DNA of 64,000 nucleotides, from positions 2,730,814 to 2,794,813 of the forward strand of contig CATQHT010000003.1 in the NCBI GenBank assembly GCA_958296045.1, given 5' to 3'. Position 1 is the first letter of the stretch, and each line of letters starts with the position of its first letter. Both the position numbers and the translations under genes were made by a program. This stretch comes from Rhodothermales bacterium. GTDB taxonomy: Bacteria; Bacteroidota; Rhodothermia; Rhodothermales; Bin80. Of the stretch, positions 14,377-53,881 are shown piece by piece. The notes beneath the pieces are model-generated. The model saw nothing but the letters and a program-made list of their open reading frames with translations, was not told the DNA's origin and did not search any database.

Positions 14377-15707
14377 GTTAGAAACCTTTGGTTCTAGCTC
14401 TGCGCACGGGAATACCAGAAAGTGACTATAGCTTGCGCTGCCGACCGGATCGTTGCTTCATGCCGTATCTGGCCAGATGCATCGGTGGTGCTACTGATGC
14501 GAATGTGCAATGACTGTGTCCGACGTTTAGCAGACCGGTCCGCCTGCCTCATGCTGCTTCTTTCGTGTTTGCTCAGGTGCAGAAATCTCCGACTCTGCCT
14601 TTTACCTGGGCACCTGCTAGGCCTGGCCAAGAGGGCTCCAAAGGGGTACGCATTGTTTATCCACTAGGAGAATTCGAACAATACCGCCAGCTGCCCCAAT
14701 ACGCGTATCAACGTATCCATTCAGAAGTCTGATTATTTGAGCGCATTCTAGCTGATTGGTATCGCGCGGAGGTGGTTCGGCGGCAATTTGTGGCTACAGG
14801 CCGGGTAATGTAAGGTCGTGGGGATGCATATGTTGCGGGTCTATGCCCGCAAGTACAATCTTCTAGAACTCACGGACCTCGCCTTGGCGATTGAGTTGGT
14901 GGCGATGATAGACGGCAACATGAACCGAAAGTACGCCCCCCTCCCCCCGCTGGTCTGGGCACTAAGTTATCTGGTATGGTTACGCAAGTCCGCTGATGCG
15001 CGCCATAGCCTACGAAGAACTCGGGCGATATACACCGTTGTGGAGCACCCGCCACAGCGAATGGCGTAGGCTCGGCAATGCCAACGGTCTCGCTTACCGT
15101 ACGCTGCACAGAGTTCATGCCTGCATAGCGAGGGGACTATACGTGCCCGTCGAGGCCAGCGCGTACACCCTCACCCTACGCGCGCTACGCGAAGGGCCTT
15201 AACCATTCACACCCACCACATAGAACAGCGTAAAATTAGCTTTCGGCGTGAAGCTCAGGCCTCCCGCTAAAAGGGGTCATGCTTTACTTGTCGGATAACC
15301 GGGTAGCTGGGTGCCAAGCTGCGCCCGCCCAATGCACCTTGAAGACTCGTTGGTAAGTTGCTCGAATAAGTACAGGGCAGACCTATGTGAAGGGCTGGTA
15401 CGGTCGAATTGCGGCTAGGCGGATACACGACTTACCTTGCCTAGAACAGTGGATGTTCCCTACATCTTCGATGGTTCTCGGGTTCAGCTGAGGTCGTTTT
15501 GACAACCAATCGCTGGAAAGTTGATGGCGATCTTAGCTAGTTCCTGCCCGACAGCCCTTCGGAGCACGAATCCGTCGGGCCTGGAACACTCTGAACCGGC
15601 GGGGGGTACGGTGACCGCGTGGACGCCAAGAATGTATTCAAGAAGGCGCAACAAGGATGGAGTTTGTTAAGAGTCCAGTGTTTGCAACTCTTCCAAAACA
15701 CGTTAGA
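14377..15707. other. Long intergenic region, no supported gene
   Basis: About 1.3 kb between two methyltransferase genes. Only short reading frames occur (for example 14818-15069), with no recognisable motifs, no good ribosome-binding sites and composition unlike the flanking genes. Base content is more AT-rich and irregular than the neighbours, which suits decayed DNA. It may be the remains of a specificity or restriction subunit, but no residue-level similarity supports that. No transposase, tRNA or repeat was recognised. Confidence 0.4.
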
Positions 15708-17273
15708 ATGAGCAAAACAGCAGTTGTGGTAGGAACCCGACACAACGACGGTGCCACGACCGGCTATGAGGCCAACCTCTGGGCAATGGCCGATGCACTT
15801 CGCGGCTCGATGGATGCTGCCGAGTACAGGCATGTTGTGCTCGGTCGTATTTTTCTGAAGTATACCTCTGACGCCTTCGAAGAGCGCTGTGCGACGGTGC
15901 AGACCGAGTTGGGCAAAGAGGCTGCGGAGGAACACGACGAGTTCATTGCAGAAAACACCTTTTGGGTGCCGAATGAAGCCCGTTGTGCGTGCCTGAGGGC
16001 CGAGGCGCGGCAGCCAACCGTCGGGCAGACCGTGGATCGGGCCATGGTGGCTATCGAGCGAGACAATCCGGCACTGAAGGGAGTGCTGCCACAGGTCTAC
16101 GCGCGGCCCGCGCTGGACATGCTGCGCTTGGGGCAGTTATTTGACATGGTGGGTAGCATCCGCGTTGGGGATGCCGAGGCCCCTTCCAAGGATGTGCTCA
16201 GGAGCGTGTACGAGTACTTCTTCTTCCAGTTCGCGAGTACCGAGGGAAAGCGGGGTGGAGAATTCCATACGCCACGCTGCGTCGTCAGGCTGCTCGCTCA
16301 TATGCTGGAACCCTACCGAGGGCGGATCTACGATCCATTCTGCGGTTCCTCGGGCATGTTCGCGCAGTTAGCAGCGTATATTCGTGCTCAAATCACCGGT
16401 AACGTGAGCGGGCAGGTGCGCGGCGATATCTTAATCTACGGCCAGGAGTCGCACTACAAGACGTGGCGTCTAGCCAAGATTAACTTGGCCATCTGGGGAA
16501 TCGGTGGGCAGATCGCTCACGGAGACAGTTTTCACAATGACCGCCATTCGGAGCTGAAGACGGACTACATCCTTGCTAACCTTCCGCTTAACGTTTCGAA
16601 CTGGGGCGGCGAGCGCCTGACCGGGGACCCGCGCTGGCGCTACGGTGTTCCGCCGAAGCGTGATGCCAACTTTGCCTGGGGGCAACACACGGTTCATCAC
16701 CTTGCACCAAACGGCATTGCTGGGTTCGTGCTTACCAACGTTTCCATGTCATCGCACCAGTCCAGCAAGGAAAGAATCCGAGCGAACCTGAATGAGGCGG
16801 ACTTTGTGGACTGCATGGTAGCACTGTCTGGGCAGCTTTTCTACTCGACCCAGATTCCGGCCCGCTTGTGGTTTCTAGCGCGTGGGCACCGCGAGTGCGG
16901 CGAGATCCTGTTTATCGACGCCAGGAAGCTCGGACGGATGGTGGACCGGACGCATCGCGACCTGACAGGAGAGGATGTCGCACAGATCGCAGATACCTGC
17001 CGCGCTTGGTGGGCCGATGCGGCGGAGAATGTCTCCGCCGATATTTCCGGCTTCTGTAAGAGTACCTCGCTGGACGAGGTTCGCAAGTACAGTTACGTGC
17101 TAACGCCGTGCAGGTATGTCGGCATCGAGTCGCAGGATGACGACGAGCCGTTCGAGGACAAGATGACGCGGTTGGAATTGGAGCTTCGCGAGCCGCAGGT
17201 AAATGGCAATAGGCTCGACGCCGCGGTTTCTAAGAACTTGGAGAGGCTAGGACTCTGGAGGCAAGGACCTTGA
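15708..17273 (+). CDS. hsdM: HsdM-like type I R-M methyltransferase subunit with altered motif IV (NLPL)
   Basis: About 521 residues from the ATG at 15708. It follows the HsdM plan: an N-terminal helical domain ([20 protein letters not shown]), then [23 protein letters not shown] motif [11 protein letters not shown] (Asp ~209), and the motif IV block [15 protein letters not shown] with [10 protein letters not shown]. In active N6-adenine methyltransferases motif IV reads NPPF; here it is NLPL (residues ~291-294), losing a Pro and the stacking aromatic, so catalysis is doubtful. No HsdS or HsdR lies nearby. Its TGA overlaps the TTG start of the HEPN-like gene, indicating translational coupling to the following pair. 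A longer in-frame start at 15657 exists. Confidence 0.88.
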
Positions 17274-17683
17274 GCAATACGGACGCTCGGCGCTGGCAGC
17301 TGCGGCTCGACACTTTCGGAAGAGCGCTCAGGCAACTAACGATTGCTTGTGACCAGGAATGTTACAGCTACTTGGAGCTTGCTGGACTGATCAAGACGTT
17401 TGAGTTCAGTTTCGAGTTGTCTTGGAAGGTTCTCAAGGATCTTCTCTTCTATGAAGGCTACGACGTGAAGGCTCCGCGTCCGGTGATCCGCAAGAGTTTT
17501 GAGATGGACTACATCGACGAGAGCGACTGTGAAACTCTGCTCAACGCGCTGAATAAGCGTAACTTGCTGAGTCATGCTTATTTGCTCGACGTGGCCCAAG
17601 AGGCGGAGACGCTGATCAAGGAATGCTACCACCCTGCGCTGCAACGGCTCCATCAGAATCTCGAAGTCAGGCGAACACCGTGA
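17270..17683 (+). CDS. HEPN-like nucleotidyltransferase substrate-binding protein (HI0074 family)
   Basis: A 137-residue, largely helical protein that begins with TTG inside the stop codon of the HsdM-like gene. The pattern [46 protein letters not shown] and KRNLLSHAY (residues ~100-108) matches the HI0074 group of the HEPN superfamily; RN..SH corresponds to the HEPN R-x4-6-H motif. HEPN partners of MNT nucleotidyltransferases act as RNase toxins or substrate-binding subunits; in characterised pairs the MNT protein neutralises them by AMPylation. The next gene encodes the MNT partner with a GTGA overlap. The operon-like coupling to a methyltransferase gene is unusual. Confidence 0.87.
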
Positions 17684-18048
17684 CAGGCGGTATTAAGGAC
17701 ATCCACCGTGACGCGATCATAGCCGCCCTCGCGGCCAATAGCCACGTGGAACGGGCCGTGTTGTTTGGCTCAAGAGCTACCCGGACGAACACCGTGACTT
17801 CCGATGTGGACATCGCGTTATTCGGAGACCGGCTTACCTTGACGGATTGGGCCCGCCTTTCTTCGGATATTGACCGGATTCCGATGGCACAATCGGTCGA
17901 TCTATTATTGTATGACTTGGTCCGAGACCGGACGTTGCGGGAGCACATTCGGCAGGATGGAATCGAGTGGTATGTCCGTCCAATACTTACAACAGAACAC
18001 CGCCAGGAGCTGCGCGGCAGTCAGCTAGGGCCGCGGAACAGGCCATGA
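17680..18048 (+). CDS. Minimal nucleotidyltransferase (MNT), partner of the HEPN-like protein
   Basis: About 122 residues from the GTG at 17680, which overlaps the TGA of the preceding gene. The active-site motif is present: LFGSRATRTNTVTSDVDIAL supplies Gly-Ser and the two metal-binding aspartates (DVD), and QSVDLLLYD supplies the third acidic position. This is the MNT/HI0073 class that pairs with HI0074-type HEPN proteins in toxin-antitoxin modules, where the MNT enzyme AMPylates the HEPN toxin. An in-frame start at 17623 would overlap the HEPN gene by 60 bp and is less likely. With the previous two genes it forms a compact three-gene unit. Confidence 0.88.
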   Translation: MTGGIKDIHRDAIIAALAANSHVERAVLFGSRATRTNTVTSDVDIALFGDRLTLTDWARLSSDIDRIPMAQSVDLLLYDLVRDRTLREHIRQDGIEWYVRPILTTEHRQELRGSQLGPRNRP

Positions 18049-33885: not shown

Positions 33886-36043
33886 TTGTAGTGAAATAGA
33901 TAGGGCCTCCGGGAACGCGCCGCGATCGGCGCCGTAACACCACCCCGGACCAGACGCGCAGCGCCATCTTCGTACGAGCCTCTAATTACCGCCGCAAAAA
34001 CGGCCAGGTGCGAACCTCATTCGCGCTCCTTCAATCCGTACGCGTCGAAGGACAATCCACCCACCGTACCCTACTCAACCTCGGACGGGATTTCAGTATC
34101 CCTAAGCAAGACTGGCCCGAACTCGCCAAGCAGGTCACCGCCCGACTGAAAGGACAAGCTCGCCTCTCCGTACAGGAAGAGGACGAGCACCTGAAGAACG
34201 CGGTCGATGACATCGTCAAACGACTCCTGGACCAAGGCTTCGACATCAATGCAAAACACCCGGATGGTCGCGACACCATTCTCACAGATAAGGTCTACAA
34301 CCCCGACGCCAAAACCGTCGGAGGCGAGCGCCTAGCGCTGCAAGCGCTCGAACTGCTGGGCATGGAAGAACTCTTGCGTGAACTCGAGTTTCCCGAAAAT
34401 CATATCAAACTCGCCTGTGCGTTGATCGTCGGACGCATGCTCTGTCCCGGCAGTGAACGGCGCACCCATAAGTGGATGACGGAGACCTCCAGTATCCTGG
34501 AGCTGCTGAACCTCCAGGAGCCAAGTCTGAGCATGCTGTACCGATGCTCAGACCGGTTGCACAAGCACCGGCATGAGATCATGAACCGCCTCTTTGGAAA
34601 CACAAAGAGGGTGTTGGATTTTGACGAGACGATCGTGTTTTATGATCTAACAAATGCCTTCTATCACGGTCGGGAGAAAGGAGAACTCCTTCGTCGTGGG
34701 CGCAGCAAAGAGAAGCGGAGCGATTGTCCTCTGGTCACGCTGGCGCTGACGCTCGATGCCTCGGGATTCCCGCGCGGTGTGGAGATTCTACCTGGCAACG
34801 CGAGCGAGCCGGCTACGCTCCAAAAGGCCATAGAGAACCTGAACGGAGCGACGCCCACCATCATCATGGATGCCGGTATTGCCACCGAAGCAAATCTGGC
34901 GTACTTGAAGGAAAACAACCTCAACTGGATCTGTGTGGAGCGAAAAAGGGTGCCTCCTGTGCCCACCCAGGCACCCGATCAAGAGTTTGTAACCGCTAAT
35001 GAGGTGAAAGTCCGGGCTTGGAAGCTCCCCGAGGAGGAGGGAGTAGTGCGCGTCTATGTACACAGTGAAGCCCGGCAGGCCACCGACGAGCAGATCTTGC
35101 AGACCAAATGCGACCAGTTTGAAGCGGCACTGCAATACCTCCATGAGGGACTGCCCGTGCCCAGACGCCTGAAAAATATCAAGAAAGTCGAACGCAAGGT
35201 TGGTCGCCTGCAGGAGAAGTACAAGTCGGTGGCCCACCTGTATGAGGTTGAGGTGAAGCAGAAGGAGGGGACACAGCGTGCCGCATCGGTCACGTTTAGC
35301 AAGCGTACCTCCCATCAGAAAAAAACCCAGGCCGCCGGAGGGTATGTGCTCAGCACCAGCCATACCACCTGGTCTGCCAAAAAGATTGCGCGCACCTACT
35401 GGCGGCTCACGGAAATTGAGGCCACGTTCCGAGTCATGAAGTCCGACCTGGGATTACGGCCTATCTATCACAGCAAAGATGAGCGGATTGAAGGACATCT
35501 GTTCATTACCGTGCTGGCCTACCACGTGTCCCATTTGATCCGCACCAAGCTCAAGGCCAACCATGTCCATGAAAGCTGGAATGCGCTCCGCTTCAAACTC
35601 AACCGGATCCATCGGATTACCACGGTGCTACCAAAGAGTAAGCACCGCTATATCGTCCTCAAAGTGGATCAGAAGTTGACGCCATGCTTGCAGCGGATCG
35701 TCCATTGTCTGGGCATGAGCTACGATCCCGCGGCGACAAGAAGCAAGGAGGAATACTCCAGTGAGCCGAACGATCTGAAAAAACCTCCTGATTCATGAAT
35801 GCTGTGACGCCCCCCATGCCTCACGCCAGTACCCACTCCAGAAGGAGTAGCGTGAGCTGTGTCCGATTCGGACAGATGAGACCCGATCAAGGGGCCCCAA
35901 TACGACGAAGGACACGCAAGACAGGGGCGAACACCCCCTAAGCCACCACCGACCGCTCCGGTAATCAGAAAGGCTCCATAGCACCCGGAAAAACGCCCCC
36001 AAAAACGGGGACAGGGGAGGTCCGACCTCTCACTTCACTACAA
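33886..36043 (+). mobile_element. Complete IS1634-like insertion sequence with terminal inverted repeats
   Basis: The left end TTGTAGTGAA (33886-33895) is matched by the inverted right end TTCACTACAA (36034-36043). Identity continues imperfectly inward, with CCTCC-type bases on both sides (left GGGCCTCC, right GGAGGTCC). One transposase gene fills most of the ~2.16-kb element. No clear target duplication was seen at the outer edges (left GATCGCG, right GTGACAA). Confidence 0.75.
34008..35798 (+). CDS. IS1634-family DDE transposase
   Basis: A 596-residue IS4-superfamily transposase of the IS1634 type: KLACALIVGRMLCPGSERRT, VLDFDETIVFYDLTNAFYHG (first catalytic Asp in FYDLTN), ATPTIIMDAGIATEANLAYL (second Asp), and the YREK-like box YWRLTEIEATFRVMKSDLGLRP (catalytic Glu), then GHLFITVLAYHVSHLIR. 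It is called from the GTG at 34008, but the frame stays open with family-like residues (FVRASNYRRKNGQV) back to an ATC at 33966, with no ATG, GTG or TTG in that part. The true start may be an unusual ATC. The catalytic triad looks intact, so it may be active. Confidence 0.9.
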   Translation: MRTSFALLQSVRVEGQSTHRTLLNLGRDFSIPKQDWPELAKQVTARLKGQARLSVQEEDEHLKNAVDDIVKRLLDQGFDINAKHPDGRDTILTDKVYNPDAKTVGGERLALQALELLGMEELLRELEFPENHIKLACALIVGRMLCPGSERRTHKWMTETSSILELLNLQEPSLSMLYRCSDRLHKHRHEIMNRLFGNTKRVLDFDETIVFYDLTNAFYHGREKGELLRRGRSKEKRSDCPLVTLALTLDASGFPRGVEILPGNASEPATLQKAIENLNGATPTIIMDAGIATEANLAYLKENNLNWICVERKRVPPVPTQAPDQEFVTANEVKVRAWKLPEEEGVVRVYVHSEARQATDEQILQTKCDQFEAALQYLHEGLPVPRRLKNIKKVERKVGRLQEKYKSVAHLYEVEVKQKEGTQRAASVTFSKRTSHQKKTQAAGGYVLSTSHTTWSAKKIARTYWRLTEIEATFRVMKSDLGLRPIYHSKDERIEGHLFITVLAYHVSHLIRTKLKANHVHESWNALRFKLNRIHRITTVLPKSKHRYIVLKVDQKLTPCLQRIVHCLGMSYDPAATRSKEEYSSEPNDLKKPPDS

Positions 36044-36738: not shown

Positions 36739-37314
36739 TCAAGCGCCATAAAGGTGGTGCGCTGCTCCTACGCATTCAGTCTGAGCGTTGGCGCAGGGCC
36801 CATAGAGTCGCTGTACCAGACGGGCAATTACGCGCGTCGTCGTTAAGCTGCGCCCCAGTGCCACATAGGCCCCGGCACGGTGCAAGGTGAGCGTCTCTAC
36901 CAGCCCCCGGGCCAACGCACGGCCCGCCGACTCATTGATGCGCTGCATCCGCTGTTGCATCCGCTTCAGGGCCGCAAGAGCGTCACCGTATTCCACAGCA
37001 TCCCATGCATGGGGCTGCGCGCGGCACACCGCCAGACGATACTCCTGCGGCAGATAGCTCACCACCCGCGCGCGCTTCTGAGCAAGGCATCGCTGCACAA
37101 AGATGTGGCCACCAGAGCGGGCCACCAACGCCCGCCTAAGCCCTACAGCGCTCGGTATCACGTACAACAAGCTCTCGCTCATGCGCGACCCGCGACGCGC
37201 AAGCTGTTCCAGCATTGTTTCTAATGTCTCCGTATGCTGCAACGAGCAGGATGCCAGGCTCAATATCCGCTTGTACCCAGCTTCTGTGACGCCCACAACG
37301 AAGGTGTACTGCAC
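36739..37314 (-). pseudogene. C-terminal fragment of an IS256 (Mutator) transposase
   Basis: About 190 residues match the catalytic and C-terminal part: FVVGVTEAGYKRILSL, ESLLYVIPSAVGLRRAL, HIFVQRCLAQKRARVVSYLP (the conserved VQRCxxHK box) and VETLTLHRAGAYVALGRSL. The N-terminal half is missing, and the frame degenerates near 36739. Because it lies upstream of an N-terminal fragment on the same strand, the pair is a scrambled remnant of at least two copies. Confidence 0.72.
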
Positions 37315-38022: not shown

Positions 38023-39495
38023 CTATCTGTGCGTGGTCGTGAGACCAACATGTAACTTCGTAACTGCACGCGCAGCACTGGTAAGCCCGGGAAACAGTGT
38101 CTCGTGGGTGATGTTGACCAAGCGCAATTCCTCGCTGATCTCCTGCTTCGATTCCGATTCTACCTCCCATTTGTAATGACAATAGACCGGCGTGTCGGGA
38201 TTCTTCATCACCGCATCCTGATCGAACTGCTCGTGATAGGCCGAAAACAGAAACGCGCCCGACTGCACGCGGAGTCGCTCGAAATGCCGTTGCGGTTCAA
38301 CGACGTATACGCGAAATAAATCTCTGGGGTCAAACCGCTTCTGGAAATATGGCTTTTCGCGCTTAATAAGCTGGTAAAGGCGGTCCATCACGATTCCATA
38401 GGTCTTCTCATCATCCTTGCTTCCTGAGTTCACACTATTGGCCATTACCCTTGGCTTGCCCAGCAGAGTATCCTGTTGGTCACGCGAGAGCTTGGCAAAG
38501 TTGGCCATTACACTAATCGCATCGCTGTCAAAGGGCTTGATTAGTCTCCGTGGAACAGAAAAAGCGTGTAGCTGCCCTCGCTGGTCGCCAGCGGCCCCTC
38601 CGTCAGCTTCACATGCATAGAAGAGCGCAACCAAAGGATTACGCGTAATGTCGAGAAGTCGCGTCCTTAGGCCATGATGCTGCGCGAGAACCCATTGTGC
38701 GAGGGCTGAAAGGGAGTCCGTAAAGTCATCAGGCCGCCGCGAAATGAGATCCAGCAGCATAGCACCTTCGGCCTGTCGGAGCTGGGGGGTATCAGAGTCA
38801 TTGAGTCGCATCACAGAGGGACGCAGCTGCCAGCTGTCTGCATATTCCCCACGAAAATAAAGCACATTGTCAGGATGCTGCTTTTGAACAGCACGGCACA
38901 TATCAAGAAGAGACGCAACTCCCTCAATGGGGCCCTTAGGCTCGCAATCCGTACGTTGCTCGCATCCTGATTCGTCTTTCGAAAACAGCTTCGCAGTCCA
39001 TGGCTTAGATTGGAGCAAGTTGGTGCCTACCAAGTCGGCTCCCATCAATACGGATCCATTCAGTTCTGCTTCCTGAAGGTTAGCGTTTCGGAGAGATGCC
39101 CCGTGGAGTATAGCGTGTCCAAGACAGGCATCGTGCAGATTCGCTCCGTCGAGGCAAGCATCAGTGATTAACGACCCACGAAGGCAAGCGCCTTTCAAGA
39201 ACGCACGGTCCAACCGTGTCCCAATCAAATTGGCTCCGCTGAGATTGCATCCACTTAAGTCTGCCTCGCACAAGTTAACTTGGCGAAAATCCGATTCTTG
39301 CAGGTTGGCCGCTGCGAGATTGACACCAGCAAGGGGAACGATGTCGGATTTGCGGTCACTGACCTCTCTTTTGCGCTTGAATTCCTCAAAGATGTTGACG
39401 TACGACAAGTCCGGTACGAAAGGCTCACTCTTGCGCTTCGCGTTCCAACTCTTAGTCCCTTTCACCAACCACTTAACATGCTCGGGATTCGCCAT
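38023..39495 (-). CDS. Pentapeptide-repeat protein fused to an FRG domain
   Basis: A 490-residue two-part protein. After a charged N-terminus, residues ~56-160 form about 20 pentapeptide repeats with a Leu or Phe at nearly every fifth position (for example ANLQESDFRQVNLCEADLSG), predicting a right-handed quadrilateral beta-helix. Residues ~205-330 match the FRG domain: NVLYFRGEYADSWQLRPSVM and HHGLRTRLLDITRNPLVA. FRG proteins are frequent in anti-phage and mobile regions, but their chemistry is poorly known. Pentapeptide helices can mimic DNA or form scaffolds. It lies 103 bp downstream of a 404-residue gene with a nuclease-like layout on the same strand. A defence role is inference. Confidence 0.85.
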   Translation of the reverse strand: MANPEHVKWLVKGTKSWNAKRKSEPFVPDLSYVNIFEEFKRKREVSDRKSDIVPLAGVNLAAANLQESDFRQVNLCEADLSGCNLSGANLIGTRLDRAFLKGACLRGSLITDACLDGANLHDACLGHAILHGASLRNANLQEAELNGSVLMGADLVGTNLLQSKPWTAKLFSKDESGCEQRTDCEPKGPIEGVASLLDMCRAVQKQHPDNVLYFRGEYADSWQLRPSVMRLNDSDTPQLRQAEGAMLLDLISRRPDDFTDSLSALAQWVLAQHHGLRTRLLDITRNPLVALFYACEADGGAAGDQRGQLHAFSVPRRLIKPFDSDAISVMANFAKLSRDQQDTLLGKPRVMANSVNSGSKDDEKTYGIVMDRLYQLIKREKPYFQKRFDPRDLFRVYVVEPQRHFERLRVQSGAFLFSAYHEQFDQDAVMKNPDTPVYCHYKWEVESESKQEISEELRLVNITHETLFPGLTSAARAVTKLHVGLTTTHR

Positions 39496-39598: not shown

Positions 39599-40813
39599 TC
39601 ATACAGCAGACTCAGATTCCGTTGATGCGTAGTTAGCAGCAGATTCGTCCGCAACCATGCGGTCAAGCAATTTCTTAATTTTCGGGGGTGGGGGGAGCAC
39701 CAATGGTGGCTTACACCGCAAACCGAATCCGGCAGCCTTCACGAGCTGTGCAACTTCCGCTTTCCGGCTTGGGTCTAAGACTGTAGCTTTCCCGAAACAG
39801 CAGTGAACATCTAGACATGCAGGCAGCACCACATCGTACGGCAAGGGATCACCGATCTGCTCAGCAAGGATCTTTATTGTTTTGTCGATTCGCTCGGTGA
39901 GTCTTGGCCACCAGAACCAGCTGAATTCAAAGCTGTCCGTAAGGCTGAAATCAACGACCAGTACACGCAGATAATCGGGCGACGCTTCACCGCACTGGCG
40001 CCGCTTCATCTTGCATCCTATCTTCCGTCCGATCTGGCTCCGCGCCGTTTGTATGGGTTGCAGCTGCTCGAAAAACAGTCTAGTGTCGGTGGACCGGCTC
40101 GGCTCCTTGACCCATACGTTCCGGTCTTTTGGATAGTGGACCACTGACTTCAGGGTGGCCTTGATCTTGAAGGTTTCGTCGACGCCTTCGAAAAGCCTTG
40201 TACTTCCCTCCCCCGCAGTTTTCATCCATGCATGTACATCCTGTTTAAGCTGGCCTAGCCATGGCCTTAGAACACGGTCGCTATTGTCGATGTCATGCGG
40301 ATAGAATCCATTGTTATTGTGGACTTCGAGCTCCACGCGCACATCGAACCCTCGGTCACACGGCGAATACCTGAAGAGCGGCGGAACGTACCACTCCACG
40401 AACCGATAGCCATAGTGATCTATCGGACTATAGACTTCGACTCTGGCCCGCAACGCTCCAACTCTGATGTCAATGTCATGCCTCGCAGAGCTCGCACGTG
40501 CCTTGATCCGCGGCTGCCCCATCACCCAACTACAGTCCAGCAGGTACAGCTCCGCCAGACGCTGTGAGAACCTTACGGGGTCCTTTTCGCGGAGCAACTG
40601 CATCCCAATCTTACCAGCGGAGCGGAGAGTCCGGTTAAGGAACTTAAGGCAGAGCTCAATACCAGGGTAGTGGGCGTTGCCAAGTAGCCTGAATATTTCT
40701 AACGGGCTTTCAACGATCTGGTCGTGTTCTCTGCGCCAGTCCAGCGTCGCATCTATTGTCCTGAACCTACCTAGCGCTCGTAGTACGGCATAATCGATCG
40801 GATAGCTGACCAT
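39599..40813 (-). CDS. Unknown 404-residue protein with a PD-(D/E)XK-like layout lacking the usual Lys
   Basis: No named family was recognised. Residues ~85-130 resemble the start of a PD-(D/E)XK nuclease: helix RLAELYLLDCSWVMG (Glu88), strand ARHDIDIRV (Asp113/115), then LRARVEVYSP, where Glu126 is present but the catalytic Lys position is Tyr128. The C-terminal half has SQIGRKIGCKMKRRQ followed by LRVLVVDFSLTDSFEF, a helix-strand pair common in large nuclease-like DUFs. The gene looks intact, starting at the ATG at 40813, and precedes the FRG gene by 103 bp on the same strand. The two may form a small operon. Confidence 0.62.
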   Translation of the reverse strand: MVSYPIDYAVLRALGRFRTIDATLDWRREHDQIVESPLEIFRLLGNAHYPGIELCLKFLNRTLRSAGKIGMQLLREKDPVRFSQRLAELYLLDCSWVMGQPRIKARASSARHDIDIRVGALRARVEVYSPIDHYGYRFVEWYVPPLFRYSPCDRGFDVRVELEVHNNNGFYPHDIDNSDRVLRPWLGQLKQDVHAWMKTAGEGSTRLFEGVDETFKIKATLKSVVHYPKDRNVWVKEPSRSTDTRLFFEQLQPIQTARSQIGRKIGCKMKRRQCGEASPDYLRVLVVDFSLTDSFEFSWFWWPRLTERIDKTIKILAEQIGDPLPYDVVLPACLDVHCCFGKATVLDPSRKAEVAQLVKAAGFGLRCKPPLVLPPPPKIKKLLDRMVADESAANYASTESESAV

Positions 40814-45797: not shown

Positions 45798-46227
45798 GAG
45801 CCAGAGTCCAGCCCAGCTTTCAGCGGAGACACATACGACCTGCCTGACAGGCCTTCCGCCCATCCCTTGGGATATACGCCTTGGTATCGTGCGTTTATCG
45901 CCGCAGGTAGGTGGTGGGCGACGCCTTTGCTGATCCCTAATGCAAGGAGTCTTCTGCGGCTGCAGCACACCCGGGATCGCGTAATACGCAGCGGCCCATT
46001 ACCTTGTGCCGAGCGCGGGAACCGGCTGCACCTTGAGCGCACTGCCGCTTGCCACGCTTTCATGGATGAATGCAGCTAGTCCACCCTATTGCACGTTTCC
46101 TGCGGAAGTCGGGAACAAGACCATACATCTGCGCATTGAATCTGACGTTGCGTGGGTCTCATAGTTCGAGGTCCACGCATGCATAAATTTCAGTGATATT
46201 CACCTTTCCTTGGAGTACTCTTCTGCA
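45798..46227. other. Intergenic region before the type ISP locus
   Basis: About 430 bp with no supported gene. A 7-bp inverted pair TGCGTGG/CCACGCA (46149-46155 and 46173-46179) spans a TTCGAGG segment, faintly like the ends of a tRNA, but the arms between are missing. It must contain the promoter for the type ISP gene; GGAG at 46212-46215 lies about 12 bases before the ATG at 46228. Confidence 0.35.
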
Positions 46228-46863
46228 ATGATGTCGTCCCGAAGTAGTGTTACGATAGATCAGATTCTTGACAAGTGGCGCTGGCAGGCGGCCACGTCTC
46301 CGTCCAACGTCGAGCGCTTCAAGGGCAGCGCGTTTGAGCGTTTGTGCATTGCATATCTGACGCACGACCCTTTGCAGCGGACGCAGTATGACGCGCCTAT
46401 GGCCTATGGCGCGTGGGCGCGCCAGCGGGGCCTAGCGGAGAGCGACCTGGGCATAGATCTGGTGGCCAAGGTGCGTAATGGCGAAGGGTGGTGTGCCATC
46501 CAGTGCAAATTCTTGGCTGAAGGGCGGCCATTGAGAAAGGCGGCGCTGGATTCGTTTCTGGCGGCTTCCGGGACTCGTGACTTCACGCGCCGGCTATTTA
46601 TCGATACCACGGGTGAGCCTTGGAGCGCCCCAGCGGAAGCGATGGCGTGCCGCCAGGCGGTGCCTGTGACCCGCGTAGGGCTCGACCAGCTACGCCAAAG
46701 CCCGATAGACTGGGCGCAATATGTCAATCACGACAAGATTGTCTTAGCAGAGCCAAAGAGGCCGCGTCCGCATCAGGACGAAGCGATCTCGTTTCAAAAA
46801 GAAAGTCAAGCCCATAGGTCCCCCATCCTGAAAAATGGGCGAGATTTTTCAGGTCGCGCGTGA
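46228..46863 (+). pseudogene. Type ISP restriction enzyme, N-terminal nuclease part (gene fragment 1 of 3)
   Basis: About 190 residues of the N-terminal Mrr-like nuclease domain of a type ISP (LlaGI/LlaBIII-like) restriction enzyme: FKGSAFERLCIAYL, SDLGIDLVAKVRNGEGWCAIQCKF (Asp and Q-x-K of the nuclease core), and RRLFIDTTGEPW. It ends with RPRPHQDEAISF, the usual lead into the helicase, after which the sequence becomes unrelated (from about 46800) and stops at 46863. The expected next ~37 residues, including the helicase Walker A, are missing. The rest of the gene resumes at 49672 after ~2.85 kb of inserted IS DNA. Confidence 0.85.
46827..46853. repeat. Perfect 10-bp hairpin at the left IS junction
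   Basis: CCTGAAAAAT (46827-46836) and ATTTTTCAGG (46844-46853) form a perfect 10-bp stem with the 7-base loop GGGCGAG. It lies just past the point where similarity to the type ISP enzyme ends. It could be an IS-end signal or a terminator-like structure; no other copy was noticed in the window. Confidence 0.6.
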
Positions 46864-47161
46864 CTCCCGGTCAGGACCGCATCTGCAGTAGAGCCGTGCG
46901 TAGGCGAGGGGTCAGTGCATGGGCTGGTAGCCAGCGGGGTAACGGATGTGCATGACGGTTGGCAGGGCTTTTCGATTGCCAGGCTCGTTTATGAGATTCC
47001 CACTAATGGGATCTATAGTCATATGGGGCATGGAGGCCGGGGTGCTACGCTATGTTTCGAACTTACCGTACGGCATTTATACTCGCTGTGGAGCATTTCC
47101 CGGCTACCCGTATCCGCCTGTCGCGGCTGCCATGCACAAGGCCTTCGCTGCTGCTAATGGC
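46864..47161 (-). other. Structured non-coding region beside the IS110-like transposase
   Basis: About 300 bp downstream of the IS110-like transposase stop. Three short hairpins occur close together: GCTGG-TAG-CCAGC at 46923-46935, TGGCA...TGCCA at 46960-46981, and GATTCCCA-CTAA-TGGGATC at 46995-47013. In IS110-related elements a structured bridge RNA is encoded in a non-coding end of the element. Whether these hairpins belong to one is inference. The element's outer ends were not located. Confidence 0.4.
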
Positions 47162-48232
47162 TCAGCAGACCGCTTGTGCGGTTGGGGTCAATGGAAAGAA
47201 GAGGTTGGGGTCGTAGGCTGTCTGTTTTCTCCAGATGGTCCACAGCACGGCCAGAATCTTGCGCTGCGTATTCAGGCGCGCATGTGTGCGGTTGTTCGTG
47301 CGATCCAGCGAGGCCTCAAAAAAGCGCTTCACCTCATTCGAGTCCTTACCGCCGCGTATGCCGTTCATCCAGGCGCGATAGCTAAGGGCCTTGAGCTCGC
47401 CATTGCCCGAGCGATCCAGGCGTTTATACGCCAGCGGCTTGCCAGCAGAACTGCGTGTGCGAATGCCCAGCCTGCAGTAGCGCCAAAGCCGCTGCTTGGT
47501 CGCAAAACGGTGCGGCGTCTGAATGAACGCATCAAAGATATGAGCACTGATCGGTCCCACTCCGGGCATCTTCATGAACTGCTGAATCTCTGGGTACCGT
47601 CTGCCCTCTCGGATCATCCGGTCTTGCGCCTTCTGCTGCGCCGCGATTGTTGAATCCAGCACATCATAATCATCCGATACCATCTCACGAGTGGGAGCGT
47701 TCGGCAGCTGCTCCAAAAAACTCTTGCGGTGTGCCGCGCTGAAAACCGTTGTCCCGTCTACGCGCAAGACACCCGCTCTCCGATACTTCGCCTTTATGAT
47801 GGTCTTCAGACTGCGTTGGCTATCGCGCAGCTTGAGATATTGCTGCGCGATAGCCTTGAAGGTGGCACGGTGTTGATGATCCGAGTGATAGACCGGTCGC
47901 AGCTCACCCATCCGCAGCAGACGGGCCAAGCGGAATGCATCCGCTAAGTCGTCCTTGTTCGCACTCTTGCTAATCAGCGCATTGTGGCGTGGATCACAGA
48001 CCACCAGCTTATCCACGTAACCACGCAGCATGCCTGCCAGCCACGCAGCCAATGTGGACTCCTCCAGGGCCAAGATCTTTTCCTTAGCATCTACCGCAAC
48101 AATGCGACTCACTATCGACAGCTCGCGTGTCCTGAGCTGCTTGCTCATGAACAGGTTGCCATCCATCCCCACCGCCGCCAGAGCGCTGTTGCGGACATGG
48201 GCATCCAAGCCGAAGTAGACTACCTGCCTCAT
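47162..48232 (-). CDS. IS110-family DEDD transposase
   Basis: A 356-residue transposase with the RuvC-like DEDD N-terminal domain (VVYFGLDAHVRNSALAAVG, KILALEESTLAAW, ANKDDLADAFRLARLL) and the C-terminal Transposase_20 domain (MKMPGVGPISAHIFDAFI, LWRYCRLGIRTRSS). IS110 recombinases use a bridge RNA from a non-coding end of the element to choose target and donor sites. The reading frame looks complete. The gene is inside the interrupted type ISP restriction gene and diverges from the IS5-like transposase, with 100 bp between the two starts. Confidence 0.92.
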   Translation of the reverse strand: MRQVVYFGLDAHVRNSALAAVGMDGNLFMSKQLRTRELSIVSRIVAVDAKEKILALEESTLAAWLAGMLRGYVDKLVVCDPRHNALISKSANKDDLADAFRLARLLRMGELRPVYHSDHQHRATFKAIAQQYLKLRDSQRSLKTIIKAKYRRAGVLRVDGTTVFSAAHRKSFLEQLPNAPTREMVSDDYDVLDSTIAAQQKAQDRMIREGRRYPEIQQFMKMPGVGPISAHIFDAFIQTPHRFATKQRLWRYCRLGIRTRSSAGKPLAYKRLDRSGNGELKALSYRAWMNGIRGGKDSNEVKRFFEASLDRTNNRTHARLNTQRKILAVLWTIWRKQTAYDPNLFFPLTPTAQAVC

Positions 48233-48332
48233 AACGTGCCTCCTTGTTTGGTGAAACCTGAACCGTATACGCGCCAGACAGCGCGACCGCCCTTTTTGAT
48301 ATTACCTATGTTCTTGGATAAGTCGCCAAGTG

Positions 48333-49415
48333 ATGCTCTTCTCCTTTGCGGAGGAACTGCTCGGTTCTCTGACCGCGCCGCAGAAGAAGCTACTGGGCGT
48401 GTTGGAGATCGCTCGCGTTGAGCGCTTTATTGACGATGATTCGAAGGCCTTGCGCGGGCGTCCGCGGAAGAGTCGTGCGGCGCTTGCGCGGGCGTTTGTT
48501 GCTAAGGCGGTTTACAACATCGATACGACACGCGCGCTGATCGAACGGATTTGCTCGGACCCACAGCTGCGCCGCATGTGTGGGTGGACGCATCAACACG
48601 AGGTTCCCAGCGAGTCGACCTTTTCACGCGCTTTCGGGGAGTTTGCGCAGTCGTGTCTGCCCGATCAGGTGCATCGTGCACTGATCGACGAGTCCTACGA
48701 AGGAGAGATCGTCGGACATCTTTCACGTGATTCTACGGCGATTAAGGCGCGCGAGCGCCCTGCTACGAAGAAGTCCGCGCTGGCCAAAGACACGCACGAT
48801 CAACCGTGTAAGGGAGAAACACCTCCAAAAAAGCAACGACGCCTTGTACGTCAGTTGGACATGAGTCTGCCGGAGATGGAAGAAGATTTGCCCGGGGAGT
48901 GCAACCGAGGCGCTAAGCGCAATGCTAAGGGTTACCGGCAGAGCTGGAACGGCTATAAGCTGCACGCAGATGTGGCCGACGGGGGTGTACCAATCAGCTA
49001 CCTGGTAACGTCTGCGTCGGTGCATGATAGTCAGGTGGCCATTCCCTTGGCTACGAAGTCTGCGAAGCGGGTCACGAATTTGTATGATGTGATGGATAGC
49101 GCCTATGATGCGAAGGAGATACGCCTTCACAGCGAGAGCCTTGGGCATGTGCCGATCATTGATGCGAACCCGCGTACACGCGCACGTAAGGCGGCGAAAA
49201 AGCGTGAGGCGAAGGCGCAGCGTGCGGCCGGATGGGTACCACCAGAGCGCGTACGCTACAACGAGCGTTCGACCGTCGAGCGCGTCTTTGGTCGCCTCAA
49301 GGACGAATATGGCGGTCGCCATATTCGCGTACGTGGTCATGCGAAGGTGCTATGTCATCTTGGGTTCGGCATACTCGCGTTGACGATCGACCAAATGACG
49401 CGCCTTGTGTGCTAA
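48333..49415 (+). CDS. IS5/IS1182-like DDE transposase
   Basis: A 360-residue transposase (the GTG at 48330 is an alternative start) with the IS4/IS5-superfamily layout: an N-terminal helical DNA-binding region (ALARAFVAKAVYNIDTTRALIERI, PSESTFSRAFGEFAQ), the first Asp in LSRDSTAIKARER, the second in YDVMDSAYDAKEI, and the Glu in RSTVERVFGRLKDEYGG. DDE residues look intact. Terminal inverted repeats were not found. With the adjacent IS110-like gene it forms the insertion that splits the type ISP restriction gene. Confidence 0.88.
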   Translation: MLFSFAEELLGSLTAPQKKLLGVLEIARVERFIDDDSKALRGRPRKSRAALARAFVAKAVYNIDTTRALIERICSDPQLRRMCGWTHQHEVPSESTFSRAFGEFAQSCLPDQVHRALIDESYEGEIVGHLSRDSTAIKARERPATKKSALAKDTHDQPCKGETPPKKQRRLVRQLDMSLPEMEEDLPGECNRGAKRNAKGYRQSWNGYKLHADVADGGVPISYLVTSASVHDSQVAIPLATKSAKRVTNLYDVMDSAYDAKEIRLHSESLGHVPIIDANPRTRARKAAKKREAKAQRAAGWVPPERVRYNERSTVERVFGRLKDEYGGRHIRVRGHAKVLCHLGFGILALTIDQMTRLVC

Positions 49416-49671
49416 CTGGCTTCACCGGCGCACAGAATTGCGGTTGTAGTGGCATGTGTAGTGGGATAGGTATGCGTAATTGTCATCGCTAAGGCCCGAA
49501 ATCTGTCTTTTTGAGGTCAACCTCACTGCGTTAGTCAACGATTCTGGTGTACGTCTATCGCCTTGGGATCTCTATTGCTCCAATCCCCGTAATGCACGTG
49601 ACATTTAGGCGCCGATTGCCGGTGCTGGAGGAGGAGCCAGAAATGCAATTTGCAAGAGGCTCCTTTACCTA

Positions 49672-52600
49672 GTGCCGAGCCTAGCGCTGATGTCGCAGAC
49701 GGTTCGTGAATGGACCGCCGACACGCGGCTGGCGATGCGTGCCTTTGCGGTGTGTTCGGATGCGCAGGTGGGCAAGCGACGCCGTCGCCCGGACGACCGC
49801 ATTGATATGGATGCGATGGATCTGGCTTTTCCGGCCACCACGGACGCGGCGAAGCTAGCGCGCGAAGCGGCACCGATCGCAGATGACCGCCTCACGGTAG
49901 TGTTTGCGACCTACCACTCGCTACCAGTGGTGGCTGAGGCGCAGGACGCTCACGGGCTGCCAGCCTTTGACGTAGCTATATGCGACGAGGCGCACCGCAC
50001 CACGGGTGCCACGATCGAGGGGGAGGCGGACAGCCATTTCGTGCAAATTCATGACGAGGAGCGGATCAGGGCGCACCGACGCCTTTATATGACGGCCACC
50101 CCCAAGGTGTATGCCAAGACTGCGCGCGACAGGGCGGGCAAAGTCAATGCAGTGCTGTGTTCTATGGAGGACAAGGAGCTCTTCGGTCCGGTGCTGTACG
50201 AATTAGGCTTTGGTCAGGCAGTAGAGCGGGGCTTATTGTCGGATTACAAGGTGATCGTGCTTACGGTGCCAGAGGATATGGTTGCCGCGGGCGTAGCCGA
50301 GACGCTGGCCAAGCACGAGGCGCTCAAGGTGGACGATGCGGGCAAGCTCATAGGGTGCTGGCGCGCCCTGGCCAAGGCCGACGAGGAGGAGTTTGCCGGT
50401 GACGCCATCTTTCCGATGCGCCGCGCTATCGCCTACTGCCGCGACATTAAGGCGTCCAAGCGGGTGCAGGAGGCCTTCAGCGTGGTGGTAAACGAGTTTT
50501 CCAGTTCTTCGGTGGCGGCTTCGTATGGTCCTGTGCCCGACTATGGCGTGTCGGTGAAGCACGTCGATGGCACGTTTAACGCGGCGCGCCGCGGGGAGCT
50601 GCTGGCGTGGCTGGGGGATGCGCGCCCAGCCGACGACGAGTGTCGAGTGCTGACCAACGTGCGCTGTCTGGCCGAAGGGGTGGATGTGCCGTCGCTGGAT
50701 GCCATCCTGTTTATGCACCCGCGCAAGAGCCAGATCGACGTCGTACAGGCGGTCGGCCGCGTGATGCGCCGCGCCCAAGGCAAGGCCATGGGCTATGTGG
50801 TACTGCCGGTGGTCGTTCCGCCGCTGGCCAGCGCGACAGCGTTCCTGAACCGCTCTGACACGTTCCGCGTGGTCTGGCAGGTGCTTAACGCTATCCGCTC
50901 GCATGACGAGCGGTTTGAGGCCATGCTGAACCTTCTGGAGGAGGGCCAGTCTGGAACGCACCTGGGCATCGTGGCATTGGCGGACTGGCGACCCAAGACC
51001 GACGGAATGGGGCCCATCCTGAATGACGATGGCGGTCGCAGCGACGGTAACGGCACGCGTAATGGCGGGACCATATTTGCTGGACTGCCAGCCGCGATTC
51101 GGGCCAAGATCGTGGAGAAGTGCGGCAGCCGCCGCTACTGGGACGAATGGGCAGGCGATGTCGCGGATATCGCGCGGCGCCACATCACGCGTATCACCGA
51201 GACGGTGACCGCCAATGAGGCCGCCCGCAGCATGTTTGGTGCTTTCTTGACAGAGCTGCGTGACGACCTGAACGAAGGCATTACGCAGGCAGATGCCATC
51301 GAGATGCTGGCCCAGCATATGGTGACGCGCCCCGTGTTCGAGGCGCTGCACGGCGATGCCGTCTTTGCCAGCCAGAATCCGGTAAGCCGGGAGATGCAAA
51401 GGGTGCTGGACGCCCTGGCGCCAGCGAGCATCGAGACCGAGGCGGAAGGATTAGAGGCCTTTTATGGGAGTGTACAGCGGCGCGCCAAAGCCGCGCAGAC
51501 ACCCTTGGCCAGGCAGAAGATCATCACGGAGCTGTATGACAAGTTCTTTCGGAACGCCTTTCCGAAGACCGCAGAGAGGCTGGGAATCGTCTATACGCCC
51601 ATTGAACTTGTGGACTTTATCCTACACTCGGTAGATACGCTGCTGCGCCAGGAGTTTGGGCAGTCGTTATCGTCCGAAGGTGTCCAGATCCTGGACCCGT
51701 TCACCGGTACCGGCACCTTTGTTACGCGCATCATTGAGAACGACCTGATCCCTCCTAGTGCGCTGCCAGCCAAGTATGCACGCGAGCTCCACGCCAATGA
51801 GATAATGCTGCTCGCGTACTACATCGCCGCGATCAACATCGAAGCTGCCTATCACCATGCGGTAGGGGCTAAGGCGTACCAGCGCTTTGGGGGGATCGTG
51901 CTCACGGATACGTTCGCCCTGCACGAAGGCGACGACCTGTATGCCGCGATCCTGCCAGAGAATTCGGAGCAACGTATGCGGCAGAAAGAAGCTCCCATAC
52001 AAGTTATCGTGAGCAACCCGCCTTGGTCCGCTGGACAGAGAATGGAAAACGACGCTGCGCAGAACCAGGAATATAAGGCTCTGCACCAGCGCATTGGGAC
52101 TACGTTTGCAGCCCATTCAAAAAGCACCAACAAGAACAGCCTCTACGACAGCTATGTGAAGGCCATCCGCTGGGCTTCGGACCGTATCGGAGAGAGCGGC
52201 ATCGTTGGCTTTGTGACCAACGCCGGGTGGCTGGAAGGCAACGCTATGGATGGCATGCGCCAGTGCCTCGCAGAAGAGTTCTCTGCCATCTATGTGCTGC
52301 ACCTGCGAGGGAATGCACGTACGCAGGGCAAGCGACGCCGGCAAGAGGGCGCCTCAGCATTTGGAGCCGGCTCCCGTGCGCCCGTCGCCATCACGCTCCT
52401 GGTGCGCAACCCGAAGCGGACAGGATGCGCGATACGGTTTCACGACATTGGCGACTACCTCAAGCGCGAAGAGAAGCTGAACAAGGTGAAAGCGTTTCGG
52501 GATATCCAGGGCATCGAAGAAGCCGGCGGATGGCACACGCTCACGCCCGACACCCACCACGACTGGTTGAACCCAAGGGATCCGGCGTTCGCCAGGTTCA

Positions 52601-53304
52601 TGGTGCTGGGAGATAAGTCGCGAAACGCGCGGCTGGGCGCGGCAATCTTTGAGAATTACTCAGGAGGCGTAAAGACTAATCGCGACGCCTGGTGCTACAA
52701 CTTCTCCGCCAAGGCGCTGAAGGCCAACATCACGGCCATGATCAGCTTCTATAACACGGAGCGCGAGCGGCTTCAGCCCCAGCTCACCGGGGCACGCAGG
52801 CCGACGAAAGCGGAAATCACGAGGCTCATCAACAATGATCTCAAGAATATTAGCTGGTCGGACGGTCTGAAAACCCAATTGCGTGGCAACAAAGGACTCG
52901 GCATTGAAGACGGACGCATTGCGACATCACTGTACAGGCCCTTCACGCGGCAGTACCTCTACCTGAGCCGTAGACTGAACGACAGGGTCTACCAGATGCC
53001 GCGGATATTCCCGCACGCGGAAGCCACAAACCGGCTTATCTGCGTGACAGGGCGGGGTGGGAGTGACGACTTCTCGTGTTTAGTGGTCCAGGATATACCC
53101 AATCTGGATATGATTGCTAAGGGCCAGTGCTTCCCGAGGTGGCTGTATGAAAAGCCTCGCGACACCTCGGGAGATGCCCTCTTTGGCGGCGAACAACACC
53201 TGGCAGATGCCCACGGGTACGTGCGAAGAAGCGCCATTAGTGCAGCAGCACTGAAGATGTTTGGCACGATGGTTGCGGGGGGGGGGGGGGGGGATTTCGG
53301 GTGA
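49672..53304 (+). pseudogene. Type ISP restriction enzyme, helicase-methyltransferase part (fragment 2 of 3)
   Basis: An open 1210-codon frame beginning mid-domain (RLLYLVPSLALMSQT, with similarity from about 49650). The helicase has CDEAHRTTGAT (motif II DEAH), LYMTATPKVY (motif III), CRVLTNVRCLAEGVDVPSLD and QAVGRVMRRAQGK (motifs V-VI). The DNA methyltransferase has LDPFTGTGTFVTRI (motif I) and VSNPPWSAGQ (motif IV), then a recognition-domain region. Helicase motif I was lost with the upstream insertion. Near the C-terminus a 17-G run (53277-53293) shifts the frame, so translation ends after GGGGGDFG at 53304, short of the final domain. A tract of 16 (or 19) G would read on into fragment 3. 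Confidence 0.9.
53277..53293 (+). repeat. Poly-G(17) homopolymer, likely phase-variation tract
   Basis: Seventeen consecutive G lie inside the coding region of the type ISP enzyme. The frame before the run and the frame that continues the family sequence after it differ by one base, so the present length is the OFF state and 16 G would be ON. In the ON state the run encodes a poly-glycine linker before DDLFHYVYGVLH. Tracts this long slip readily in replication and are also prone to sequencing error. Confidence 0.85.
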
Positions 53305-53881
53305 CGACCTCTTCCATTACGTCTACGGCGTACTGCATCTGTCCCGATACCGCAAGCGATTCGCAGCGAACCTCGCCAAAGAGCTGCCACGCATACCGGT
53401 TCCGAAAGACCCCGCACACTTTTGGGCCCTGGCCGACGCCGGCAAGCAGCTGGGTGACCTTCACGTAGGCTACGAAAATGCCGAGCCCTGGCCCATCGAG
53501 TTCGCAAAAGGCGGGTGGCAGCCCGAAGCCGATATCGCACCCATGTCGTGGTTTCGCGTCGGTAAACCTATGAAACACCCCGCGCGCGCACGCAACAAGG
53601 ATCTGTCACAGATCATCTATAACCCGCACATCATGGTGGCAAATGTGCCAACCGAAGCATACGAGTACGTCGTTAATGGTAAAGCGGCCATCGCATGGGT
53701 CATGCTCCGGCAGTGTGTGACACGCCACAGAAAAAGCGGCATCATAAACGACGCTAACCAGTATGCGTCAGAAACGATGCAAGACTCCGCATATCCGCTT
53801 CAGCTCCTGGCACGCGTTATCCGCGTCAGCATGGATACCCTGCGCATCGTCAAAACACTGCCCGAACCCGAATGGCAGTGA
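53295..53881 (+). pseudogene. Type ISP restriction enzyme, C-terminal part (fragment 3 of 3)
   Basis: About 195 residues continuing the type ISP protein in another frame after the G tract: DDLFHYVYGVLHLSRYRKRF, LPRIPVPKDPAHF, VANVPTEAYEYVVNGKAAIAW and SGIINDANQYA are conserved C-terminal segments of the family. It has no start of its own other than the frame opening at 53261 before the tract. It ends at 53881, 84 bp before the TTG proposed as the start of the ABC exporter gene. Confidence 0.85.

Follow-up and report, generated by a model that had tools for sequence, protein, structure and literature searches.

The gene at positions 38023 to 39495 of the window (the whole 64,000-nucleotide stretch of DNA analysed here) encodes a short header, a pentapeptide-repeat beta-helix and an FRG domain in a single protein, an architecture that is new and is assembled from known parts. 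No report combining an FRG domain with pentapeptides was found in a literature search of papers outside subscription, which is not proof of novelty. The fusion is spread among very different bacteria and frequently has defence genes as neighbours, and for these reasons its probable role is that of an antiviral alarm made of one gene. The fuller reading, to which we give about an even chance, is an antiviral and probably abortive-infection protein, in which a sensor or scaffold is joined to an FRG effector of ADP-ribosyltransferase (ART) fold. The gene and its parts are:

38023-39495, minus strand: FRG-pentapeptide fusion gene, intact open reading frame of 490 aa with an ATG start
39346-39495, minus strand: header module, residues 1-50, 'MANxEHxxxLxxGxxxWNxxR...FxPDLS', alpha-helical cap
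39016-39333, minus strand: 21 contiguous pentapeptides, residues ~55-160, beta-helix
38881-39015, minus strand: linker, residues 161-205, with conserved W166
38056-38937, minus strand: FRG effector region, residues 187-480, PADLOC PDC-S15, predicted ART-like fold
38605-38862, minus strand: Pfam FRG core PF08867, residues 212-297

The two clear modules described in the first-pass annotation of this DNA are borne out by Pfam and by the beta-helix of an AlphaFold2 model. The Pentapeptide match (E 9.7e-30) falls in four stretches, the best at residues 55-90, and the FRG match (PF08867, E 2.3e-17) scores 64.1 bits against a curated cut-off of 25. Residues 187-480 match the candidate defence family PDC-S15 in PADLOC (E 2.1e-69). 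The pentapeptide register is unbroken through 21 units, with L, F or I as the central residue in 21/21, and the protein has the tandem A(D/N)LXX pentapeptides that form a quadrilateral beta-helix. In the AlphaFold2 model an N-terminal helical cap occupies residues 4-23, pLDDT is 91-98 across most of the repeat, and the C-terminal domain is mixed alpha/beta.

Within the FRG domain, R215, G216, R230, H273, D282, R407, Q411 and L457 (window numbering) are invariant in 36/36 aligned FRG proteins, and the window protein keeps every one of them; E243, G275, T278, R279 and F415 are among the residues that are nearly invariant. A model of the FRG domain alone (pLDDT 86) gave no significant match to PDB and viral libraries using Foldseek, none having E<1, and an FRG profile searched against the sequences of solved structures gave nothing significant. 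With a second structural aligner, the only one to give a signal, the model matched 37 solved entries at Z >=2, all but about two of them ARTs or NAD-degrading relatives. The best match is weak (Z 4.9, rmsd 3.4 over 104 residues), and the ART-type matches align largely to one shared part of the model. MbcT and NatT are among the NAD-degrading relatives. In the model R215 is on the first strand and Q411 immediately precedes a late strand, positions that may correspond to ART motifs I and III. Despite the low Z, an ART reading is favoured because the list of matches is uniform and because published work (PMC9503650) counts Frg among the ART superfamily and predicts it to be a NADase effector. The FRG region is predicted to be an NAD-using enzyme of ART fold, with NAD+ as its putative substrate. 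The earlier suggestion that FRG is the effector half is supported. In the literature searched, neither an activity of an FRG protein nor a phage-resistance phenotype was found.

In the mechanism proposed, header and beta-helix would act as a sensor or scaffold that either holds the enzyme inactive or clusters it. An infection cue, whether a protein of the phage or some perturbed part of the host machinery, would bind and release the FRG domain, the freed domain would consume NAD+ or ADP-ribosylate a target, and the infected cell would then cease growth. Phage as the trigger and growth arrest as the outcome are presumed in this scheme, as is the notion that the pentapeptide helix senses something. 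The same fold relatives could instead indicate an intracellular stress or toxin-antitoxin-type regulator that is not phage-specific and depletes NAD+ on DNA damage or plasmid conflict: MbcT and NatT, RES-family relatives matched by the FRG model, are NAD-degrading toxins, and FRG genes are common on plasmids. We consider such a regulator unlikely, as no antitoxin-like partner adjoins the gene, the sensor-effector fusion is self-contained and its context is that of defence islands.

The first-pass annotation further suggested that the helix mimics DNA. In that case it could mimic DNA or bind gyrase or another DNA-binding protein, so that the protein keeps watch over topoisomerase complexes or shields them while FRG modifies whatever is bound. 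MfpA and Qnr are indeed among the solved relatives of the helix; however, the best matches are to HetL, NP275-NP276 and designed solenoids. The repeat of the window protein (108 residues) has a net charge of just -5, and 12 homologues with repeats of 87-131 residues range from -5 to +3, so that by this measure the strongly acidic surface expected of Qnr/MfpA-type mimics is absent, and repeat length ranges from 85 to 129 residues among fusion homologues. DNA mimicry thus finds no backing in the charge, and the topoisomerase reading as a whole is highly improbable.

More can be learned of the N-terminal half from its other partners. The header, i.e. the first 45-50 residues, matches the starts of many other pentapeptide proteins, and header-type pentapeptide proteins occur in 69/296 genomes of the phylum, 38/117 cyanobacterial, 17/201 Chloroflexota and 5/120 spirochaetal genomes. 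Several bear a TIR domain (PF13676, E 1.4e-25) and others a membrane domain. Many cyanobacterial members have no extra domain, and some have tails that look nuclease-like (L108, L125) or TRADD-N-like (L107, L135). As the one N-terminal module bears TIR, membrane and other domains, the FRG fusion is one of a set with different effectors. The fusion had been called unusual in the first reading of the sequence; it is real, yet it is one of several effectors carried on the same header-pentapeptide module. This exchange of C-terminal domains suggests that the module is an interchangeable sensor or scaffold for different immune effectors. Pentapeptide repeats are known in TRADD-N, VMAP and Orc/CDC6 conflict systems from the literature. 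A broader and tentative proposal, which we think could well prove wrong, is that the header-pentapeptide module is a general, exchangeable bacterial immune sensor or scaffold (in Bacteroidota, Cyanobacteria, Chloroflexota, Spirochaetota and others), whose C-terminal partner is a TIR, FRG/ART, membrane, nuclease-like or adaptor-like domain depending on the protein. The FRG version would then be an abortive-infection system that works alone and has been exchanged between phyla by sponge symbionts.

Four Chloroflexota header-pentapeptide proteins (L140, L147, L157, L159) have a common C-terminal domain, 'VVLILGRFTSERK...', which is Rossmann/TIR-like by eye; that of L157 received no name when scanned with Pfam. 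FRG proteins of phages and plasmids carry a different N-terminal domain of ~165-190 residues (L174:320-1681, L175:2003-3370, L176:3485-4816, L177:4497-5858) with similar starts, e.g. 'LIMGGEPD' and 'LIMAGEPD', possibly another sensor; no Pfam name was obtained for it in the three phage proteins scanned. At a further locus (L041:5941-7164), the fusion partner of FRG is a C-terminal region from a HindI-like subunit of type I restriction (PF11867, E 3.7e-12).

Full-length relatives of the fusion are 41-47% identical overall. Among 16 genomes of the same family, three others carry full-length relatives (42-47% identity), one of them in two copies. FRG is found in 44/296 sampled genomes of the phylum, and all fusions in that sample belong to the window's family. 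Scanning one genome per species, further full-length or near-full-length relatives were found in Gemmatimonadota, Chloroflexota, Spirochaetaceae, Holophagales, Gammaproteobacteria and Nitrospirales MAGs. No relative of the full fusion was found in the viral contigs searched, and the plasmids and phages searched gave FRG-only or pentapeptide-only matches, none reaching 80% of the query; 459 plasmid records contain a match to one part or another of the protein, the top ones being annotated as FRG.

In trees, the FRG regions of 13 fusions group together to the exclusion of 23 other FRG proteins (support 100/100), and they remain a single clade when set against closer FRG proteins from phages and plasmids (100/99). 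Chloroflexota copies are scattered within this clade, one being sister to a Holophagales copy (100/99 and 98/94). This departure of the branching from the phyla points to one fusion followed by horizontal transfer between phyla, although relatives were sampled by their similarity to the window protein and independent fusions elsewhere could therefore be missed. Judging by MAG names (RHO, IRC, SB066x, bin103), the hosts look like sponge symbionts for the most part. In a study of MAGs from the sponges Rhopaloeides, Ircinia and Aplysina, defence genes are reported to be enriched and to have moved among these MAGs by lateral transfer (PMC8163846). That copies seem, by names only, to be concentrated in animal-associated communities would also suit a toxin used against other bacteria or as an effector on the host animal; ART folds are frequent in secreted toxins, and pentapeptide repeats are also paired with an enzyme in some injected effectors. 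This is nevertheless very unlikely, given the conserved, cytoplasmic-looking header at the start of a protein with no signal peptide by eye, the lack of a conserved immunity or secretion gene adjoining the fusion, and relatives that adjoin restriction, Avs and DRT genes.

The surroundings of the fusion gene within the window include the following:

11896-14373, plus strand: type IIG restriction-methylase (block 11896-18048, with the next two)
15657-17270, plus strand: type I HsdM
17270-18045, plus strand: nucleotidyltransferase pair
34008-35798: DDE transposase
36739-37314: Mutator-type transposase fragment
39599-40813, minus strand: upstream same-strand gene, 404 aa
46210-46860, 49672-53301 and 53261-53878, plus strand: type ISP restriction enzyme in three pieces (block 46210-53878)
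47165-48232, minus strand, and 48330-49412, plus strand: open reading frames between the first two type ISP pieces (47165-49412)

The type ISP pieces are an Mrr-like start (46210-46860), a body (49672-53301) and a specificity end (53261-53878) in another frame. Neither an Rfam RNA nor a tRNA was found within the window. GC content is ~52.5% in the fusion gene and 55-61% in the surrounding DNA. The 404-aa upstream gene has no Pfam or PADLOC match; it was rejected as a partner, since no homologue of it occurs at other fusion loci, and is probably not part of the system. A stretch of it, 'HDIDIRVGALRARVEVYSP', has a faint likeness to a nuclease core. No conserved partner gene was seen when the fusion loci were compared.

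Copies of the fusion in other genomes commonly lie in defence neighbourhoods. In a genome related to that of the window, one copy (L031:1812-14704) has a Dsr1-like SIR2 gene on one side and an Avs2-like gene on the other, in a compact defence island. Another (L058) is near Druantia DruE, DRT1a and an IIG enzyme, type III RM adjoins two more (L060 and L033), a type II methylase adjoins L053, and a Schlafen/AlbA-type gene adjoins L055. PADLOC matches at E<=1e-30 were obtained for at least 11 of 84 ORFs neighbouring fusions and for 1 of 99 control ORFs (p ~0.001), the controls being a small set from 11 arbitrarily chosen regions in several of the same genomes. Because ORFs within one locus are not independent, defence matches were also counted by locus, and here the difference (6/14 fusion loci and 1/11 control loci, p 0.08) is no more than suggestive. 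The association with defence and mobile genes that had been claimed from the sequence alone is supported. FRG relatives also occur in temperate-phage accessory regions, e.g. at the end of P2_2H1, a position which we take to be the P2 defence hotspot.

Likewise, the gene is intact amid decaying DNA, as first described, with a transposase fragment and the dismembered type ISP enzyme nearby. Mean identity across 12 intact fusions is 54% for FRG, 33% for the pentapeptide part and 36% for the header. Comparison of L034 with L033 gives a dN/dS of 0.15 for FRG; the repeat reaches 0.56, its faster evolution being suggestive only because alignment of the repeat is uncertain. For L058/L061 the FRG value is 0.14. 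These values (dN/dS ~0.15) indicate purifying selection on the FRG part of the relatives, and with the window gene kept intact they agree with the selection first proposed. Disrupted copies exist in Nitrospirales and Chloroflexota, with a frameshift in L062 and a stop between the two halves in L059. Elsewhere in the window's own genome, a decayed pentapeptide fragment (G000:C1:999760-999969, L052) is 60% identical to residues 83-150; it contains a stop and no FRG remnant adjoins it. The two disrupted homologues, this fragment and the IS elements on one side of the window copy could be read as traces of a selfish mobile gene, without clear benefit, that spread with transposons and is now decaying. 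Such a history seems quite improbable against 12 intact copies, strongly conserved FRG residues and the low dN/dS; far from being found only here in a state of decay, the fusion is widespread and conserved.

The presence of TIR and FRG on the same N-terminal module offers a sensor-effector logic that can be tested. FRG is frequent among predicted immune effectors, and our search gave neither an experimentally tested member nor a solved relative for it. Orphan pentapeptide proteins are many, and the same logic could give some of them a role.

Among known systems, PDC-S15/FRG proteins share the FRG region (E 2e-69) and the same invariant residues with the window protein, whereas FRG-only proteins have other or no N-terminal domains in place of the header and pentapeptides. 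ADP-ribosyltransferases, RES/MbcT-type NAD-degrading toxins among others, make up nearly all solved matches of the FRG model, but at Z <=4.9 and with no sequence match to any solved structure. The HetL, NP275-NP276 and Rfr23 solenoids have the same beta-helix fold (Z 19-22) without a fused enzyme. Qnr and MfpA share the repeat fold (Z ~16), whereas the window protein is not strongly acidic and is fused to an enzyme. Header-pentapeptide-TIR proteins have the same header and repeat followed by a predicted NAD-using C-terminal effector, with TIR replacing FRG.
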